Below are positions 11,185-35,674 of a stretch of 64,000 bases of DNA, piece by piece. Below the pieces are notes generated by a model. The model did no database searches and had not been told where the DNA came from. It was given only the letters and a program-made list of their open reading frames with translations. Position 1 is the first letter of the stretch. Every line of letters starts with the position of its first letter. The translations under genes and the position numbers were made by a program. Location of the stretch: assembly GCA_030429705.1 (NCBI GenBank), contig JAUIES010000001.1, forward strand, positions 1,302,001 through 1,366,000, given 5' to 3'. This stretch comes from Phycisphaerae bacterium (lineage in GTDB: Bacteria; Planctomycetota; Phycisphaerae; Phycisphaerales; UBA1924).

Positions 11185-12225
11185 ATGCGAAGGAAATCGT
11201 GTCTGACATTGCTCGCGATCGCGGGCACCGCTTCGGCGGAACCTGAGATGATCACGCTGACCGCTGAGTCGTTGCCCGCGGACACGCCGATCGGGCATAT
11301 CTACTACAACGCGGCGACGGGTGAGATGGTGCGGACGGCTGGGCCGATGACTCAAGGCTCCGGCCGGGGGTTGCAAACGGATCCGATTTGGATCAACACA
11401 GACACACGGCAATGTCTCGACGAGCCATCCGAGATTGAGTACTACAACATATTGGACAGCGCAGATCCGGCGAATGAGCGGTGGGTGCTCGACTGGGGCG
11501 ACCTCGAGCCAGATAGCCGACTGGACTCATTTTCATTGATGTTTGTCACGAGCGTGTTCGATCCTGAAGGTGATGGTGAGGATGGCTTCGATCTTCATAT
11601 CACGCTGTTCGATCGCTTTGACCATGTCCAAATAGGTTGCAATGTACCGTTGGCCACGCTCTTTGAGATTGATGGCTTGCCTGGATCAACCTCAACGGAC
11701 GGGGATGTGGCGGTCTGGATGCTCACGGTCGACCTTGCTGGAGGTGATGGGTCGTTCATGTTCGGCAACTATGACATGGATGGCGACCAACTCAACGAGT
11801 TTGGAGTGGGGTTCAATTTCAATCATCCCAAGGATTTGACCGTTGGTCGGTCGGGTTTGGTGCTTGTCGTGCCACCGGGTCGAGCTGAACCAAACATACT
11901 CGGCAATGAAGATAACTTTGGCTTATGCCTGACTACGAACTGGGATCAAACCAACCCGGCCTACTGGTTCGGCGGATACAACTGTGACCCGGCACAGGGC
12001 GAGATCAACCCATGGGCTGCGTTCTACTTCGCCATGTATGGTCGTACCGGTCCACCATGCCAAGCGGATCGCAACAGTGATCGCGTCCTCGATTTCTTCG
12101 ATGTACAGGATTTCCTCATTGACTTCGCAGCCGAAGATCCAAGTGCCGATTTCAACGACGATGGTCTTTTTGAGTTCTTCGATGTGCAGGGGTATTTCCA
12201 TTTGTTTGTGTCAGGTTGCCCTTAG
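11185..12225 (+). CDS. Exported GC-type dockerin protein, unknown N-terminal domain
   Basis: 346 residues. A signal peptide (MRRKSCLTLLAIAGTASA) is followed by about 260 residues with no family I recognise, rich in Asp/Gly and Trp and probably all-beta. The last 55 residues hold two dockerin-like calcium loops (DRNSDRVLDFFDVQDF and DFNDDGLFEFFDVQGY) and end in SGCP. Planctomycete proteins with this end are known as GC-type dockerin proteins; attachment to the cell surface is assumed from their resemblance to cellulosomal dockerins. ATG 11185 is chosen because GGGGAGG precedes it and a signal peptide starts there. Confidence 0.85.
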   Translation: MRRKSCLTLLAIAGTASAEPEMITLTAESLPADTPIGHIYYNAATGEMVRTAGPMTQGSGRGLQTDPIWINTDTRQCLDEPSEIEYYNILDSADPANERWVLDWGDLEPDSRLDSFSLMFVTSVFDPEGDGEDGFDLHITLFDRFDHVQIGCNVPLATLFEIDGLPGSTSTDGDVAVWMLTVDLAGGDGSFMFGNYDMDGDQLNEFGVGFNFNHPKDLTVGRSGLVLVVPPGRAEPNILGNEDNFGLCLTTNWDQTNPAYWFGGYNCDPAQGEINPWAAFYFAMYGRTGPPCQADRNSDRVLDFFDVQDFLIDFAAEDPSADFNDDGLFEFFDVQGYFHLFVSGCP

Positions 12226-28175: not shown

Positions 28176-28793
28176 ATGGGCAGAGACTACGACAATCGCT
28201 CAAACTACAACCGACGCAATGACCGCGGCGACCGGAACGACCGAGGTGGTCGTCGCGACGGCGGACCTCGTCATCGCGGGACCCCGCTTTCGGAACTGGA
28301 CCCCAAGTTGACCGAGTTAAGCCGCCGACTCATCGGTGCGGCGATTGAGGTTCATAAAGAACTCGGTCCTGGATATTCTCGAGAAATCTATCTCAAGGCC
28401 CTCGAACTTGAAATGGGCGATGAAGAAATTGGCTTCACCAAAGATCACACATTCGATGTGTATTTTGGTGATGATGTCATCGGTCAGGTGTCGTGCGATT
28501 TGTTCGTCTCTGATCGGTTCCTCGTAAAAGTGATGGCTGAACAACGCGAGGTGCGTCCGCACGAACGGACCGCTTTGCGTGCTGAGTTGCGAGCCGCCGA
28601 CCTTGAGTTGGGATTGGTTATTAATTTTGGAGAACGCCGACTCAAGGATGGTTTGGTGCGTGTGCTCAATCCTGACAAGTTGAATGAGTTGCACAGCAGC
28701 CGCGACGATGACGCAGATGACGAGTATGAAGACGCTGAAGAAGGCGAAGACTACGACGATGATGGTGACGACGACGATGAAGGCGAAGAGTGA
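28176..28793 (+). CDS. GxxExxY-family protein with acidic tail
   Basis: 205 residues. The N-terminal 38 residues are basic and low complexity (repeated Arg, Asn, Asp, Gly). Residues 45-165 form the GxxExxY domain (IGAAIEVHKELGPGYSREIY, then VIGQVSCDLFV and LINFG-like VINFGERRLKDGL), with the motif shifted to G-x-x-R-E-I-Y. The last 30 residues are almost all Asp and Glu. Function of the family is unknown; it may be related to nuclease folds. AAGGAGA lies 6 bases before the ATG. It sits between two ketoacyl synthase genes, 6 bp before the second. Confidence 0.8.
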   Translation: MGRDYDNRSNYNRRNDRGDRNDRGGRRDGGPRHRGTPLSELDPKLTELSRRLIGAAIEVHKELGPGYSREIYLKALELEMGDEEIGFTKDHTFDVYFGDDVIGQVSCDLFVSDRFLVKVMAEQREVRPHERTALRAELRAADLELGLVINFGERRLKDGLVRVLNPDKLNELHSSRDDDADDEYEDAEEGEDYDDDGDDDDEGEE

Positions 28794-30218: not shown

Positions 30219-31793
30219 TTATGGGCAACCGATCGCAAACGCCTGCAGGAACAGTTGGACATCAAAGAAGTCCCAAACGCCGTCATTGTTCAGGTCCGCG
30301 TTCGGATTGCTCGCGGTGAAGTCGGCAAGGAAATCAAGAACATCGAAGAAGTCGAGCACACCATCACCGTTCCAGTCTGGCAGGCACGGCTCGCACTGGT
30401 CGTCAAAGCAGAGTGCCGCCTGTTCATCGAACGGTTCGAACGGGTCGACTGGGAACTCTTCCATGTGAGGCGCGTCGGCGCGTTCAACCGGGAAAAGGAA
30501 GGGCCGAGGATCAAGTTCCTGGAACAGGTAGTCGTTTTCTCTGTTGCATCCGGTTTCACCAAGATCATTGGTTTTGATATGGAAGATATCGTCGAGTCCG
30601 CCGGTGAGGAACCCGCCGATTCGACCGGCCGCAAGATAGCCGCAGGAAGGGGCAGGCACGAGCCCGTCGAGTTGGGCCTGGTCCGCCGAGTGCCAGCGCC
30701 AGAGCGGGATGCCGCCAGCATCGAAGCCGTGAATAGTTGCTTCACCGCCGGGGGGGCCGAACGCACCGACGACAGCGAACTCACGCATGTCGTTGTTGTA
30801 GCGAACGGACGAGTACCCGGTGGTGCTGTCGACAAATGCGTTGCCACCGGCAAAATTTGATGCCACCATCGGGCTCAGATCAGGAGCGACCAGGACCCAG
30901 TGTTGCGCAAGGGCGGCTGTCGTTGACATCGGTCGATCCGTCCGACCTGCGACAACGAGTTCGCCATTTTGAGCGTTGACATCAAGCCCGTCGCCGGTCT
31001 CGATGGCATCGCGGTCAGCGCCCGGGTGCAGGTTGTAGTGAGCAGCCATGATGGGCGCACCGTCGCGCTCGATACGCAGAATCATCGGGTCTTGCAGGTC
31101 GACGAACGGGAGACCCAGGTTGGGATCTGACATGCGGATGGTGCCCGAGATGGCAAGCGTACCATCAGACTCGGCTTTGATGTCGGTAAATGCAAAGACA
31201 TTCTGGCGTTCCGCACCAATATTGGCGGACGGGTCGAAGTAGATCCACGACCATACGACTGCACCGCTCGGGCGTAAACAGAACGCTGTCGGCGCACCCT
31301 GAAAGTTGGTGACGACATAGATGCGTTCATCTTCGGTCTCGATGAGTGCGGGCCCTGGTTGCGGGGTGTGAATGGGATCGGTGCCAACCGTTCCGGCATA
31401 GCGACCTGACCAGACGACATCGCCGTTCGGGCGCAGACGCATGACGATCGTGCTCATACCCCCACCTGAGGTTGTGTCGGTCAGTCCAGCGATGAGGATG
31501 TCGCCGTTTCGAGCGGTTTCGACTGAGAAGCCAGTTGTGGCAGCATCCGACGCATACACACGGTTCCAAAGTCGATTGCCGAGCGGGCCATAGCGGACAA
31601 CCTGGATAAAGTCAGCCCCGCCGGTGACGAAATCGCCTACGGTGACATACCCGCCATCATCGGTGGTGATATCAACATCGAACGCCTGTTCAAATGCGTT
31701 CGGGCCGCCCAGCGCTCGTTCATAACGCTGTGCCTGTGCTGTGCCGGCAACAACAGCCAGAGTCAAAGTGATCGCGCTCATTTTTCCGTACAT
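30219..31793 (-). CDS. Exported GC-type dockerin protein, repeat-containing
   Basis: 524 residues from the ATG at 31793, which has AAAGGAG 7 bases upstream and begins a signal peptide ending TAQA. Residues about 25-430 contain repeated segments of the type GGYVTVGDFVTGG, GDILIAGLTD and GELVVAGRTD, suggesting an extracellular SBBP/beta-propeller-like fold of the kind that reads 'd-g-g-y-v-v-G'. The C-terminal dockerin loops are DWNGDGVLDFFDVLDF and DLNNDGVWDFFDVQLF, ending IGCP. Role unknown. Confidence 0.82.
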   Translation of the reverse strand: MYGKMSAITLTLAVVAGTAQAQRYERALGGPNAFEQAFDVDITTDDGGYVTVGDFVTGGADFIQVVRYGPLGNRLWNRVYASDAATTGFSVETARNGDILIAGLTDTTSGGGMSTIVMRLRPNGDVVWSGRYAGTVGTDPIHTPQPGPALIETEDERIYVVTNFQGAPTAFCLRPSGAVVWSWIYFDPSANIGAERQNVFAFTDIKAESDGTLAISGTIRMSDPNLGLPFVDLQDPMILRIERDGAPIMAAHYNLHPGADRDAIETGDGLDVNAQNGELVVAGRTDRPMSTTAALAQHWVLVAPDLSPMVASNFAGGNAFVDSTTGYSSVRYNNDMREFAVVGAFGPPGGEATIHGFDAGGIPLWRWHSADQAQLDGLVPAPSCGYLAAGRIGGFLTGGLDDIFHIKTNDLGETGCNRENDYLFQELDPRPFLFPVERADAPHMEEFPVDPFEPFDEQAALCFDDQCEPCLPDWNGDGVLDFFDVLDFLADFTASNPNADLNNDGVWDFFDVQLFLQAFAIGCP

Positions 31794-31920
31794 TGTGCTT
31801 CTCCTTTTGAAGACATCTGAAGTGATTGCACGAGCGTCGTGCAATTCTGCAAGTTAAGCGGTGCAGGAACAGGACAATCACGCATCATGGGCGTTCAAGC
31901 CAAGAAATTATTCAAAAAGT

Positions 31921-31980: not shown

Positions 31981-33816
31981 CTAGGGGCAGCCCGTTGCAA
32001 AGTCCTGCAGGAACGCCTGCACATCAAAGAAGTTGTACAGCGTATCGTTGTTATAGTCGCCGCTCGGATCCTGCGTGGCAAAAGCCTGCAGGAAGAGTTG
32101 CACATCGAAGAAGTCGAGCATCGTGTCGTTGTTGAAATCGGGCGGGCACGATGAGCCGAAGACGATGGTTTCGAAATCCATCTCAACCGGGGCGCTCTTG
32201 CCCGTCGCGACCCATTGGTTGTAGAGCACAATGCCTGCGTCGTTCGTGGTATTTTCGTCGCGAAGGAATTCGATGTATTCCTTGGACGCCGTCTGATAGA
32301 ACAACCGAACTTCAGCACGGGCAGCGCCTGCCGGGATGGCGAAGTCAGTATCATCCCAGTGCTGACCGTCGGCGTAGGTCGCACCGACGGGCGCTGCCTG
32401 CACAGCTTCAAAATTGGTATTGGTGAAACCGCGCGGCGGAATACGGTTGTCCTTGACCACCGTGTTGTTAATCGCAAAATGGAACCCCGGGCCAGCGGGG
32501 GCACCGATCGCTGCCGCTACATCCGGCGTGATGCCGAGTTCGGCTTCATACACCTTGGTGTCGCCGGTCGTCAGATCGGCGGTGGCTGCGTCGTAGTGAC
32601 CGCGTTCAGCGATCAACGCATCGGTCGCGTCGTAGAACTGGACATTGAGCCACATGCGGCGACCTTCGGGGTACCCTGTCGGCAGTTTGTGACCTGACTC
32701 ATTCGTGATTCGCACCGACAATGTCGAACCATCGCTCGTCAGGTCCATGTCCGATGCATTTTCAAGCATCTGGACCGCACGCGCGATCGAGGCGTTGACC
32801 GATTCTTCTGTGAGGAAAGTCTCTGAATCCGGGTACAGATTGCGGATTGCCCTGAGGACCCAGGTGTTGCCGCCGTTGAAATGGTGCTGGGGCAAGTCGT
32901 CGCGGACCGGGCGATCCTCGAACGCACAGCCGCGACCTGTTGCATCTGGCATATGACAGTCCTGGCAGGACGAAACCAGTGGGTTGTTGCCGCCAAAGCG
33001 TCCGGTCATGTCGATCGGGCCATCGGCAAAGTCACTCATGAGCCACTCTGAGTAGGTTCGTTCGACCGGGAATTGATCGTATTTGTCGAAACTTGCAGCG
33101 GGTGTGTCCCATGCGCCCGGGGCATAGGTGCCATCTGGTTGACGCTCGTAGACGGGATTCGACACGTCGTGGCAAGTGGCGCACATCGCTGAGTCTTGTG
33201 TGAACGGCGACTGCAACCAGTCGTGATAGAAAAACTCTTTACCCAGGTCAAAGGGACCACGACGGCGGTCGAGCGGATCGACCACATAATGACCGGAGTG
33301 TGGATTCACTGGTTGGTCTTCAAGGTTGTCAAGAATGTCGAAGTCGACAGCCGGATCGACACCAACCGTGTAGTCCGGATCAACCATGCGGTGACAGAAG
33401 TTGCAGGTCACGCCCTCGAAATCGGCACCCGTGAGCGCCGAGCCGTCTGTCGGTGTGCTTCGACCGGCGAGCCAACCACCGGGGGTATGACACCGGATAC
33501 ACAGATCGCCTGAACCAGGAGCGTCCTGATTTGCGATCGCCAGACACGCATGGAAGAGCGGGTCACGAGCAGCCTGACCCATCATGCTGGCGGCCCATGG
33601 GCGGAAGGGCTCGTGCGTTTCGTCATAATTGCCGTGACAGAACGAGCACGCCTGAGCGGTCAAGATGGGGTCGGTCAGCGTGTTCGGTTGTGTACCAGGA
33701 CCAAAAAAGTCGTTGAGTGTTGATGGCGCCGGCAAAGCGAAAGTCAGCGTGGCAACAGCACCGCCGACCAGCGAGACCCACAGCACCTCACGACGCAAAA
33801 AACGGATCGATTTCAC
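31981..33816 (-). CDS. Five-heme c-type cytochrome with GC-type dockerin tail
   Basis: 611 residues. Start is GTG 33816, preceded by GAGAGGGG; residues 1-30 are a signal peptide or anchor. Five CxxCH heme sites are visible: CSFCH 57-61, CIRCH 106-110, CNFCH 138-142, CATCH 212-216 and CQDCH 284-288. The heme region resembles the multiheme cytochrome c552/c554-like proteins; further His residues (68, 89, 173, 176, 198) could be axial ligands. A beta-rich domain (about 330-550) follows, then dockerin loops DFNNDTMLDFFDV and DYNNDTLYNFFDV ending TGCP. An outer-surface electron carrier is the natural inference. Confidence 0.88.
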   Translation of the reverse strand: MKSIRFLRREVLWVSLVGGAVATLTFALPAPSTLNDFFGPGTQPNTLTDPILTAQACSFCHGNYDETHEPFRPWAASMMGQAARDPLFHACLAIANQDAPGSGDLCIRCHTPGGWLAGRSTPTDGSALTGADFEGVTCNFCHRMVDPDYTVGVDPAVDFDILDNLEDQPVNPHSGHYVVDPLDRRRGPFDLGKEFFYHDWLQSPFTQDSAMCATCHDVSNPVYERQPDGTYAPGAWDTPAASFDKYDQFPVERTYSEWLMSDFADGPIDMTGRFGGNNPLVSSCQDCHMPDATGRGCAFEDRPVRDDLPQHHFNGGNTWVLRAIRNLYPDSETFLTEESVNASIARAVQMLENASDMDLTSDGSTLSVRITNESGHKLPTGYPEGRRMWLNVQFYDATDALIAERGHYDAATADLTTGDTKVYEAELGITPDVAAAIGAPAGPGFHFAINNTVVKDNRIPPRGFTNTNFEAVQAAPVGATYADGQHWDDTDFAIPAGAARAEVRLFYQTASKEYIEFLRDENTTNDAGIVLYNQWVATGKSAPVEMDFETIVFGSSCPPDFNNDTMLDFFDVQLFLQAFATQDPSGDYNNDTLYNFFDVQAFLQDFATGCP

Positions 33817-33976: not shown

Positions 33977-35422
33977 TTACGGGCAGCCCGCAGCGAACAG
34001 ATTCAGGTACATCTGGACATCAAAGAAATCAATGACAAGGTCGTTGTTGAAATCGGCAGCAAGGTCATTGGATGCGAACAGGTTGAGGAAAATCTGAACA
34101 TCAAAGAAGTCCAGATCACCATCGCTATTCAGATCTGGAGCACACGGCGCGTCATATTCATAGGCATAGGTTCGGCCGCCACTACCAAACTGATTCGCAT
34201 GCACGGCTTTTGAGCCGACGAGCACATAACGCCCGTCGGGACTCATATCCAATTCAAACGGCGAGCCCTCGGTATCAATGGACCCGATGAGATTCATATC
34301 GCGGTCATACACGCGAACCTCCGGTTCGGTGTTGCCTGCGTCGCCCCAGGAGGCGCACACGAATCGCGTACCGTCGGCATTGGCCTCGGCCTTGACAACG
34401 GAGTTCTGTTGTGATCCGGTGCCGGTATAGGTGCTGGACGCGACCACAGTTCCGGTGAGGAGATCAACGACTCGGTGTTCATTTGGAAGGTAGCCCTGTG
34501 CGTAGTTGTGGCTCAGCGAGAACAGGGTCATGCCATCGCCACTGAGTGCGACCGCCCCGAACCAAGACTGCGATCCTGTGCCGTTATAGACGACCTGCCA
34601 TTTGCCACTAACTTCGCGTGCGGCTCGCACATTGAACCCACCGTCTGCGATGGCGGTGCCGTCGGCCGAGATACGCGCATATCCGCCTGACCCAGAGACG
34701 GGCAGGTTGAACTGCTCGGTCAGTGTGGCGGTATCGAACAGACGAGCGACCGGGCCATTGGTAACCACGAGGCGTGAGCCGTCGGCGCTGAGTTCGACAC
34801 CCGGTGTGAAGCCATCAAACAGCGTTGAGTTGAGTTCGGTGCCTGACGCATCGAAGACGACAAGTTTTGTCTTGGTGCCGTCGTATGCACACGCAGCAAC
34901 GCGTGAGCCATCTGCAGAAACCGCGATGGCGCGCTTGCCAGAGTTGGTGTATTCGCTTTCGAAGGTATAGGTCCAGACCGGAGTGCCGCCGCCAGCGGCT
35001 GTGAATGCTCGAACGGTGATGGTTGAGCCCGTCGCCCATGAAATTGCTGCACAGAGTGATGCGTTGGCAGCAGCATCGATGCCGATCACGCTCGGGTTCT
35101 CAGCGAGGAGCGAGTAGAAGAAATCCGGTGTCCCCGGGCCTGTTGTTTCAAACTTGCTGATTCGTTCATCATTCAAGGCGTGCGCAACCCACGATTCGCT
35201 TGCATTTCCTCCGAGCGCGACTGACTCTGTGATTGACGCCCCGTCGACAAATGTCCAGAGCAGCGTGCTGCGTGACTCGAGATCCAGTATGGAAGTTGGT
35301 TCGGGCGTGCCAGAGATCTCCTCAATGTGAATGCCCCGGTCATCTGTGACGGCGATATGTCGAACAGCCTGAGCGGAAGCTGATGCGGTCAGCGCAACGA
35401 GGGTCGTGATAGTCAGTTTCAC
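33977..35422 (-). CDS. Exported beta-propeller protein with GC-type dockerin tail
   Basis: 481 residues. GTG 35422 is chosen: AAGGAGAG lies 6 bases before it and a signal peptide (ending SASAQA) starts there. The body shows repeats of the form ISADGTAIA, VSADGSRVA, LSADGSRLV, MSPDGRYVL, as in WD40-like/YVTN propellers. The two dockerin loops are DLNSDGDLDFFDVQIF and DFNNDLVIDFFDVQMY; the protein ends AAGCP. No enzymatic residues recognised. Confidence 0.82.
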   Translation of the reverse strand: MKLTITTLVALTASASAQAVRHIAVTDDRGIHIEEISGTPEPTSILDLESRSTLLWTFVDGASITESVALGGNASESWVAHALNDERISKFETTGPGTPDFFYSLLAENPSVIGIDAAANASLCAAISWATGSTITVRAFTAAGGGTPVWTYTFESEYTNSGKRAIAVSADGSRVAACAYDGTKTKLVVFDASGTELNSTLFDGFTPGVELSADGSRLVVTNGPVARLFDTATLTEQFNLPVSGSGGYARISADGTAIADGGFNVRAAREVSGKWQVVYNGTGSQSWFGAVALSGDGMTLFSLSHNYAQGYLPNEHRVVDLLTGTVVASSTYTGTGSQQNSVVKAEANADGTRFVCASWGDAGNTEPEVRVYDRDMNLIGSIDTEGSPFELDMSPDGRYVLVGSKAVHANQFGSGGRTYAYEYDAPCAPDLNSDGDLDFFDVQIFLNLFASNDLAADFNNDLVIDFFDVQMYLNLFAAGCP

Positions 35423-35674
35423 TGGTCTCTCCTTCATCATGGTGTAAACAGCCGGTTTGCGGGTTCGCGGGCCCGCACAATCAGCCTACCGCAAAATCGA
35501 GCAATCTCCAAGAGTCGGATTATCCTGAACCGACGAATCGCATCGGTCTGCTCTGGTAGGCGCGAGAGATTGAGGCACTGCACTCGTGTGGGCGAAACGA
35601 AGATGGGGTGCCCCTATAGTGCGTTCCTCGTCTGCCGAATGACGATGACCAAGGCCTTGAAAGGGATACACACA

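Follow-up and report, generated by a model that had tools for sequence, protein, structure and literature searches.

A pentahaem cytochrome of the c552/ExtKL kind with a GC-type dockerin house tail in Phycisphaerae

Among planctomycetes, anammox bacteria are known to carry out extracellular electron transfer. The nearest described relatives of the protein analysed here are pentahaem cytochromes. Penta-heme c552 of Thermochromatium tepidum (PDB 5ze8) is a chain of 435 residues with five CxxCH sites, which stops at an Ig-like domain with an H..PTG..R motif. In the parts drawn on here, a 2025 paper on cable bacteria (PMC11976967) groups the pentahaem cytochromes (PHC) of these organisms with ExtKL of Geobacter, describes a pentahaem domain plus an Ig-like domain for both, and finds the PHC structurally similar to c552; it also refers to a proposed link between c552 and AvECN, a nanowire protein of archaea. 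Going by the cited portions of PMC11976967 and PMC5877670, extKL consists of two genes, and these are adjoined by the extI porin and the extM/extN cytochromes. Dockerin-type modules have likewise been described in planctomycetes; according to the sections of PMC6461901 used here, a cohesin-dockerin 'planctosome' with peptidases as cargo has been proposed for the freshwater family Nemodlikiaceae. In the open-licence literature on dockerin and planctomycetes, Phycisphaerae or sorting, no title or listing describes a dockerin-tailed cytochrome, none joins type IX secretion (T9SS), multiheme and extracellular electron transfer, and the term 'GC-type dockerin' was not found.

Here we describe a gene in a 64,000-nucleotide stretch of a Phycisphaerae genome, referred to as the window. 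Its product belongs to a known kind of pentahaem cytochrome, and what is new is the fusion of this core to a putative surface label, a GC-type dockerin.

The five-haem core

The gene occupies 31981..33816 on the minus strand, as do all features of the protein given below. Read from a GTG at 33816, which was assumed as the start, it encodes an exported pentahaem cytochrome with a GC-type dockerin tail, 611 residues in length. As a purine-rich stretch, GAGAGAGGGG, lies 6 bases ahead of this GTG, the sequence favours it over the alternative start at an upstream in-frame ATG (33888). The starts of the orthologues were chosen by script close to the position of the window GTG and have no say on the true start. 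Judged by eye, the N-terminus (approximately residues 1-29, 33730..33816) looks like an export signal, with a helix at residues 6-22 in a low-confidence part of the predicted model. It has no lipobox, and the lipobox pattern matched none of the 39 orthologues.

Five CxxCH motifs mark the haem sites: CSFCH (residues 57-61, 33634..33648), CIRCH (106-110, 33487..33501), CNFCH (138-142, 33391..33405), CATCH (212-216, 33169..33183) and CQDCH (284-288, 32953..32967). Sites 1 to 3 align to 5ze8, site 1 to its haem 1, and site 5 aligns through CQ.CHMP in a weak segment, while site 4 is supported by conservation and by a shuffle test. In 20000 shuffles of the protein CxxCH occurred 0.0085 times on average and twice at most, compared to five times in the real protein. 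All five motifs are kept across an alignment of 118 rows (including the window protein; 110 rows are different), the sole exception being C57 in row L060, which starts late. Six instead of five CxxCH motifs were observed in the open frames of L113, L117, L118, L121, L122, L124 and L125, all of which fall in a branch of 13 rows that do not carry a dockerin.

Met, His and Lys are all able to bind haem iron. From conservation and the alignment with 5ze8, in which haem 4 is not covered, we infer four candidate distal haem ligands: M79 (33580..33582), H198 (33223..33225), H311 (32884..32886) and H376 within NESGHKLPTG (32689..32691). H311 and H376 are found in all 118 rows and H198 in 117, with an alanine in L025. 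The column of M79 is more variable, with Met in 105, His in 10 and Lys in 3 of the 118 rows; it aligns with a histidine of 5ze8, whereas Met prevails here. The fifth haem may be open or ligated by some other residue. C297, a cysteine that follows haem 5, is present in 105 of the 118 rows and replaced by A, S or T in the other 13.

The structure of the window protein was predicted with a mean pLDDT of 90.1 and contains no haems. A Foldseek search of this model returned one strong match to a solved structure, 5ze8, with an E-value of 5.5e-16. Over model residues 48-553, 336 residues could be aligned (Z 24.4, rmsd 2.8, 24% identity). The model and the structural alignment rows also delimit a predicted Ig-like beta-sandwich domain at residues 349-555 (32152..32772). 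In agreement with the fold match, a sequence profile built from 50 cores retrieves 5ze8 (E 3.6e-5); its main alignment takes in haem sites 1-3, and weaker segments bring in haem 5 and, from the Ig-like domain, the GH..PTG..R motif. By predicted fold and by sequence, the core belongs with the pentahaem cytochromes of the Thermochromatium c552/ExtKL kind, in which a five-haem domain is followed by an Ig-like domain. The T. tepidum chain bears neither a dockerin nor a T9SS tail.

The likeness to ExtKL does not extend to equivalog status, which we rejected, the window protein scoring 27.7 bits against NF040886 (the ExtKL equivalog model), far under the cut-off of 250. The same model weakly matches 13 of the 39 orthologues at E <= 0.001. 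A search of the own genome returned no ExtKL at E <= 1e-5; since the window gene itself, a weak match in hmmscan, escaped this search, it excludes only a strong ExtKL. In contrast to extKL, the window gene encodes a single polypeptide with a sorting tail, and the extI porin and extM/extN cytochromes have no counterpart among ten window ORFs. The OmcA/MtrC family model TIGR03507 gave 13.5 bits, compared to a cut-off of 209.3.

The tail and its relatives

The C-terminal residues 557-611 (31984..32148) form a two-repeat GC-type dockerin tail with predicted helices at 569-580 and 596-608. Residues 557-610 score 32.0 bits against NF041540, 'GC-type dockerin', over the curated cut-off of 29. With this score and the conserved haem motifs, the combination that the sequence-only reading had picked out, five CxxCH sites and a GC-type dockerin tail in one exported protein, is confirmed. 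As the window tail has no match to Pfam Dockerin_1 (PF00404) up to E 0.1, 'dockerin' is used here for the GC-type relative and not for the classical cellulosomal module. From other GC-type dockerin proteins, the present one differs in that the tail is fused to a multihaem cytochrome and that the tails of its orthologues are split into genome-specific dialects.

With the whole protein as query, 114 places were found in the own genome, namely the protein itself and 113 that match its tail end only. Eight of the 114 lie within the window, at 12049, 30222, 31984, 33980, 37309, 42454, 44467 and 51173. Both neighbouring genes are among these, with the same tail type at 30222..30389 in the downstream ORF (30219-31844) and at 33980..34156 in the upstream ORF (33977-35440), again on the minus strand. 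The tail is a house address label common to about a hundred proteins of this genome. As 113 other places match it, both neighbours included, it is not specific to electron transfer; a special pairing of dockerin and cytochrome was rejected, none of the 113 matches being to the cytochrome core.

To follow the tails across genomes, one set of 20 genomes was searched at E <= 1e-6 with three cytochrome tails of different dialects; one of these genomes, G024, has no cytochrome match, and in several genomes the counts are lower bounds as 150 candidates were scored. Each tail found matches chiefly in its own genome and in some whose dialect is similar. The first tail was found at at least 147 and at least 151 places in G028 and G020, and at none in the 18 other genomes. 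For the second, there were at least 109 places in the own genome (G000), 1 to 74 in ten others and none in 9, while the third gave at least 148, 87 and 51 places in G029, G049 and G046, 3 and 1 in two more, and none in 15. Among the 39 orthologues the median identity is 51% for the core and 29% for the tail, and of 741 orthologue pairs, 13 are more similar in the tail than in the core. Another ORF with a similar tail was present at the same locus in 16 of the 39 loci, the remaining 23 being uninformative. In 13 of these 16 the tail of the same-locus ORF is closer to the cytochrome tail than is the tail of the nearest orthologue, which suggests that the tails within one genome tend to evolve as a group, separately from their host proteins. 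Among the three exceptions is the window locus, where the neighbour's tail is 52% identical to that of the cytochrome, compared to 60% for that of the nearest orthologue.

The orthologue set was derived from 41 genes (the window gene and 40 loci). Two were omitted: L044, which is cut by a contig end and has a dockerin-like tail, and L032, with a frame broken in the assembly whose second part reaches query residue 610. The broken frame of L032 (L032:4007-5569, G023) is either a real mutation or an assembly error. Matches in G060 and G016 and a fragment in G025 are not part of the set. Overall, 36 of 61 genomes of the family, counting the own genome, contain a cytochrome match at E <= 1e-20. The sequence-only reading had considered that the tail might be absent from all orthologues; instead, a dockerin-like tail ends all 39 aligned family orthologues, as judged by NF041540 at E <= 0.001 for 26 and by visual inspection for the others, with L040 the weakest of these. 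A second, well separated cytochrome branch was observed in the same genome family (L031, L037, L040, L041 and L042), with divergent tails of its own; G032, G029, G003 and G007 carry such a cytochrome beside a copy of the other type.

Beyond the family, tails were surveyed in 79 named loci, which stem from the best 80 of 469 relatives and so lean to close relatives; 56 of 294 phylum-wide matches entered the survey only where they were also seen elsewhere, and a second, contig-end copy of L092 was omitted. Eight core pairs are identical between the sets of 39 and 79, so that the two are not independent. A profile built from the 39 tails recognises the tail in 56 of the 79 loci (E <= 0.01), L088 being borderline. 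The other 23 comprise seven T9SS tails, nine tails of about 135 residues, two verrucomicrobial ones, L077 and four others. A sorting tail is not universal on this core, since L117 has only 27 residues past the core and no recognised sorting tail was seen in L124 and L127. The tail of L126 is unreadable because of a run of N.

The tail of about 135 residues replaces the dockerin in one branch (L071, L074, L076, L079, L080, L084, L091, L094 and L123). The one example searched, L079, had no match in Pfam or NCBIfam; this tail is possibly another house sorting tail.

All seven T9SS tails score over the cut-off of the type A domain TIGR04183. They belong to Flavobacteriaceae (including Aestuariivivens sediminis S-DT1-15), Zixiibacteriota and three other MAGs. 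SprA, the T9SS translocon, was found over cut-off in all seven of these genomes, compared to none of six without the tail, one of which shows a weak match below cut-off. The window protein, in contrast, does not match TIGR04183 up to E 1, and no SprA match was found in its genome. Mapped onto a tree of the cores, the distribution of tail types requires six changes. The T9SS rows lie in one separate branch, along with verrucomicrobial and other rows, and the T9SS tail may have a single origin on this core.

Genomic surroundings

A Pfam search of ten window ORFs between 26768 and 45816 revealed no porin or multihaem family, and the sole electron-transfer-like gene among them encodes a flavin-type oxidoreductase. 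Likewise, clustering of the ORFs of 120 loci (the window, L009-L048 and L049-L127) gave no family-wide neighbour, the real neighbour clusters spanning at most 13 loci. This is a weak test: the largest cluster unites the cytochrome with ORFs joined, it seems, mainly via their tails (92 of 107 members overlie the cytochrome), cluster 4 is also made up of genes grouped by their tails, and the second cluster consists of antisense frames over the cytochrome (28 of 32), favoured by a longest-ORF filter through which real neighbours may be lost. In one subclade (L021, L024, L027, L028, L029, L030, L046 and L086) a neighbour gene near the cytochrome is shared, which we tentatively take to encode a menaquinone-pathway MqnD-like protein. 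Between two beta-ketoacyl synthase genes, the window also encodes a protein of the PDDEXK_3 nuclease superfamily (28176-28790, plus strand) that has no PADLOC match at E <= 0.001.

The sequence-only reading had brought up porin-cytochrome genes elsewhere in the genome. The MtrB/PioB porin (PF11854) is absent from the own genome at E <= 0.001, in a search in which only one of the controls rang, and that below cut-off; an MtrB-type porin-cytochrome conduit was rejected on this ground. Outside the window, the genome does contain an electron-transfer locus (L128:5739-16096, G000:C4). It encodes a tetrahaem cytochrome, a 4Fe-4S protein, a DsrP-like membrane protein (420 bits, cut-off 350), an octahaem cytochrome, ResB and a CcsB-like protein for haem attachment, which passes the Pfam cut-off and falls short of the NCBIfam one, with an Alginate_exp beta-barrel nearby. 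The presence of these genes suggests that the organism makes c-type haem and implies no link to the window cytochrome. In a survey for multihaem genes, the CxxCH pattern was found at 486 places, compared to 166 in a reversed control, and the first of these places were covered individually.

Location and possible role

The explanation that we favour, with a probability of about 0.6, is an exported cytochrome of the c552/ExtKL kind that carries the surface tail of its house and transfers electrons or reduces a small substrate at the cell surface. The pentahaem cytochrome would be exported through the inner membrane, fitted with the general-purpose surface-sorting or anchoring tail of the genome. 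What recognises this GC-type dockerin would probably be a receptor or translocon of the envelope particular to the lineage, rather than a classical cohesin. At the surface, the cytochrome would use its five haems to relay electrons between a donor in the envelope and an acceptor outside the cell, or to reduce a small substrate. Proteins sorted by T9SS pass across the outer membrane. Delivery of the same core by T9SS in some phyla, together with a house tail in planctomycetes, points to a surface or secreted cytochrome in both, and by this analogy the window cytochrome is probably located on the outside of the cell. The T9SS-tailed proteins branch apart from the others, so that planctomycetes need not share their location. 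Further points weigh against this explanation: no conserved electron-transfer neighbours were found in the weak test described above, the neighbour's tail at the window locus breaks the dialect trend, a sorting tail is not universal on this core (L117, L124 and L127), and the nearest solved relative, 5ze8, stops at the Ig-like domain and has no assigned function in the parts of the literature consulted here.

The tails might also be taken further. Genome-specific dialects would call for a co-evolving receptor or translocon, and we tentatively consider an undescribed outer-surface sorting system in Phycisphaerae, with the five-haem cytochrome as conserved cargo, in which surface display of this core, delivered by T9SS elsewhere, would be conserved and the tail replaceable; this reading is speculative and less likely than not.

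A periplasmic cytochrome that shuttles electrons between periplasmic enzymes, with a tail that tethers it to a scaffold of the envelope on the inner side of the outer membrane or serves for stability only, appears rather unlikely. It would accord with the lack of an MtrB-type outer-membrane conduit in the own genome, and the L128 locus, with its tetrahaem, 4Fe-4S, DsrP-like and octahaem proteins, could be served by such a carrier; the T9SS-tailed orthologues in SprA-containing genomes, however, point outside the outer membrane there. About equally doubtful is a surface enzyme that reduces a small molecule, perhaps selenite or another oxyanion, in place of a conduit to solid acceptors. The weak ExtKL-model matches among the orthologues would fit, since ExtKL is, according to the cited part of PMC5877670, a candidate for selenite reduction in Geobacter, and so would the largely conserved C297. 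Yet the window protein itself falls far short of the ExtKL cut-off, C297 is replaced by A, S or T in 13 of the 118 rows, and this reading names no known substrate.

Docking to a scaffold protein in a cohesin-dockerin complex, as in the proposed 'planctosome', is the least credible of these alternatives and, in our view, very improbable. In its favour, such modules are described for Nemodlikiaceae, in the sections of PMC6461901 used here, and the genomes of two relatives contain a cohesin match. Although the tail is widespread, cohesin (PF00963) was not found at E <= 0.001 in the own genome, which is 96% complete, and just 2 of the 21 genomes searched gave a match, as did one control. In addition, a simple pattern for the canonical calcium loop is absent from 10 of the 39 orthologue tails, and Pfam Dockerin_1 matches only 5 of the 39 at E <= 0.001. 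Cohesin docking was rejected on the results for PF00963. Of the two placements offered by the sequence-only reading, the cell surface gains indirect support from the T9SS-tailed orthologues and SprA, whereas a dockerin-bound complex is not borne out.

For proteins of uncultured planctomycetes, a surface location is usually guessed. One cytochrome core that bears two unrelated sorting tails in different phyla constitutes a natural experiment, which supports a multihaem carrier at the surface and singles out the GC-type dockerin as a probable label for the cell surface, with a receptor yet to be found. If the surface reading is true, Phycisphaerae would gain a conserved candidate protein for electron exchange with the cell exterior.
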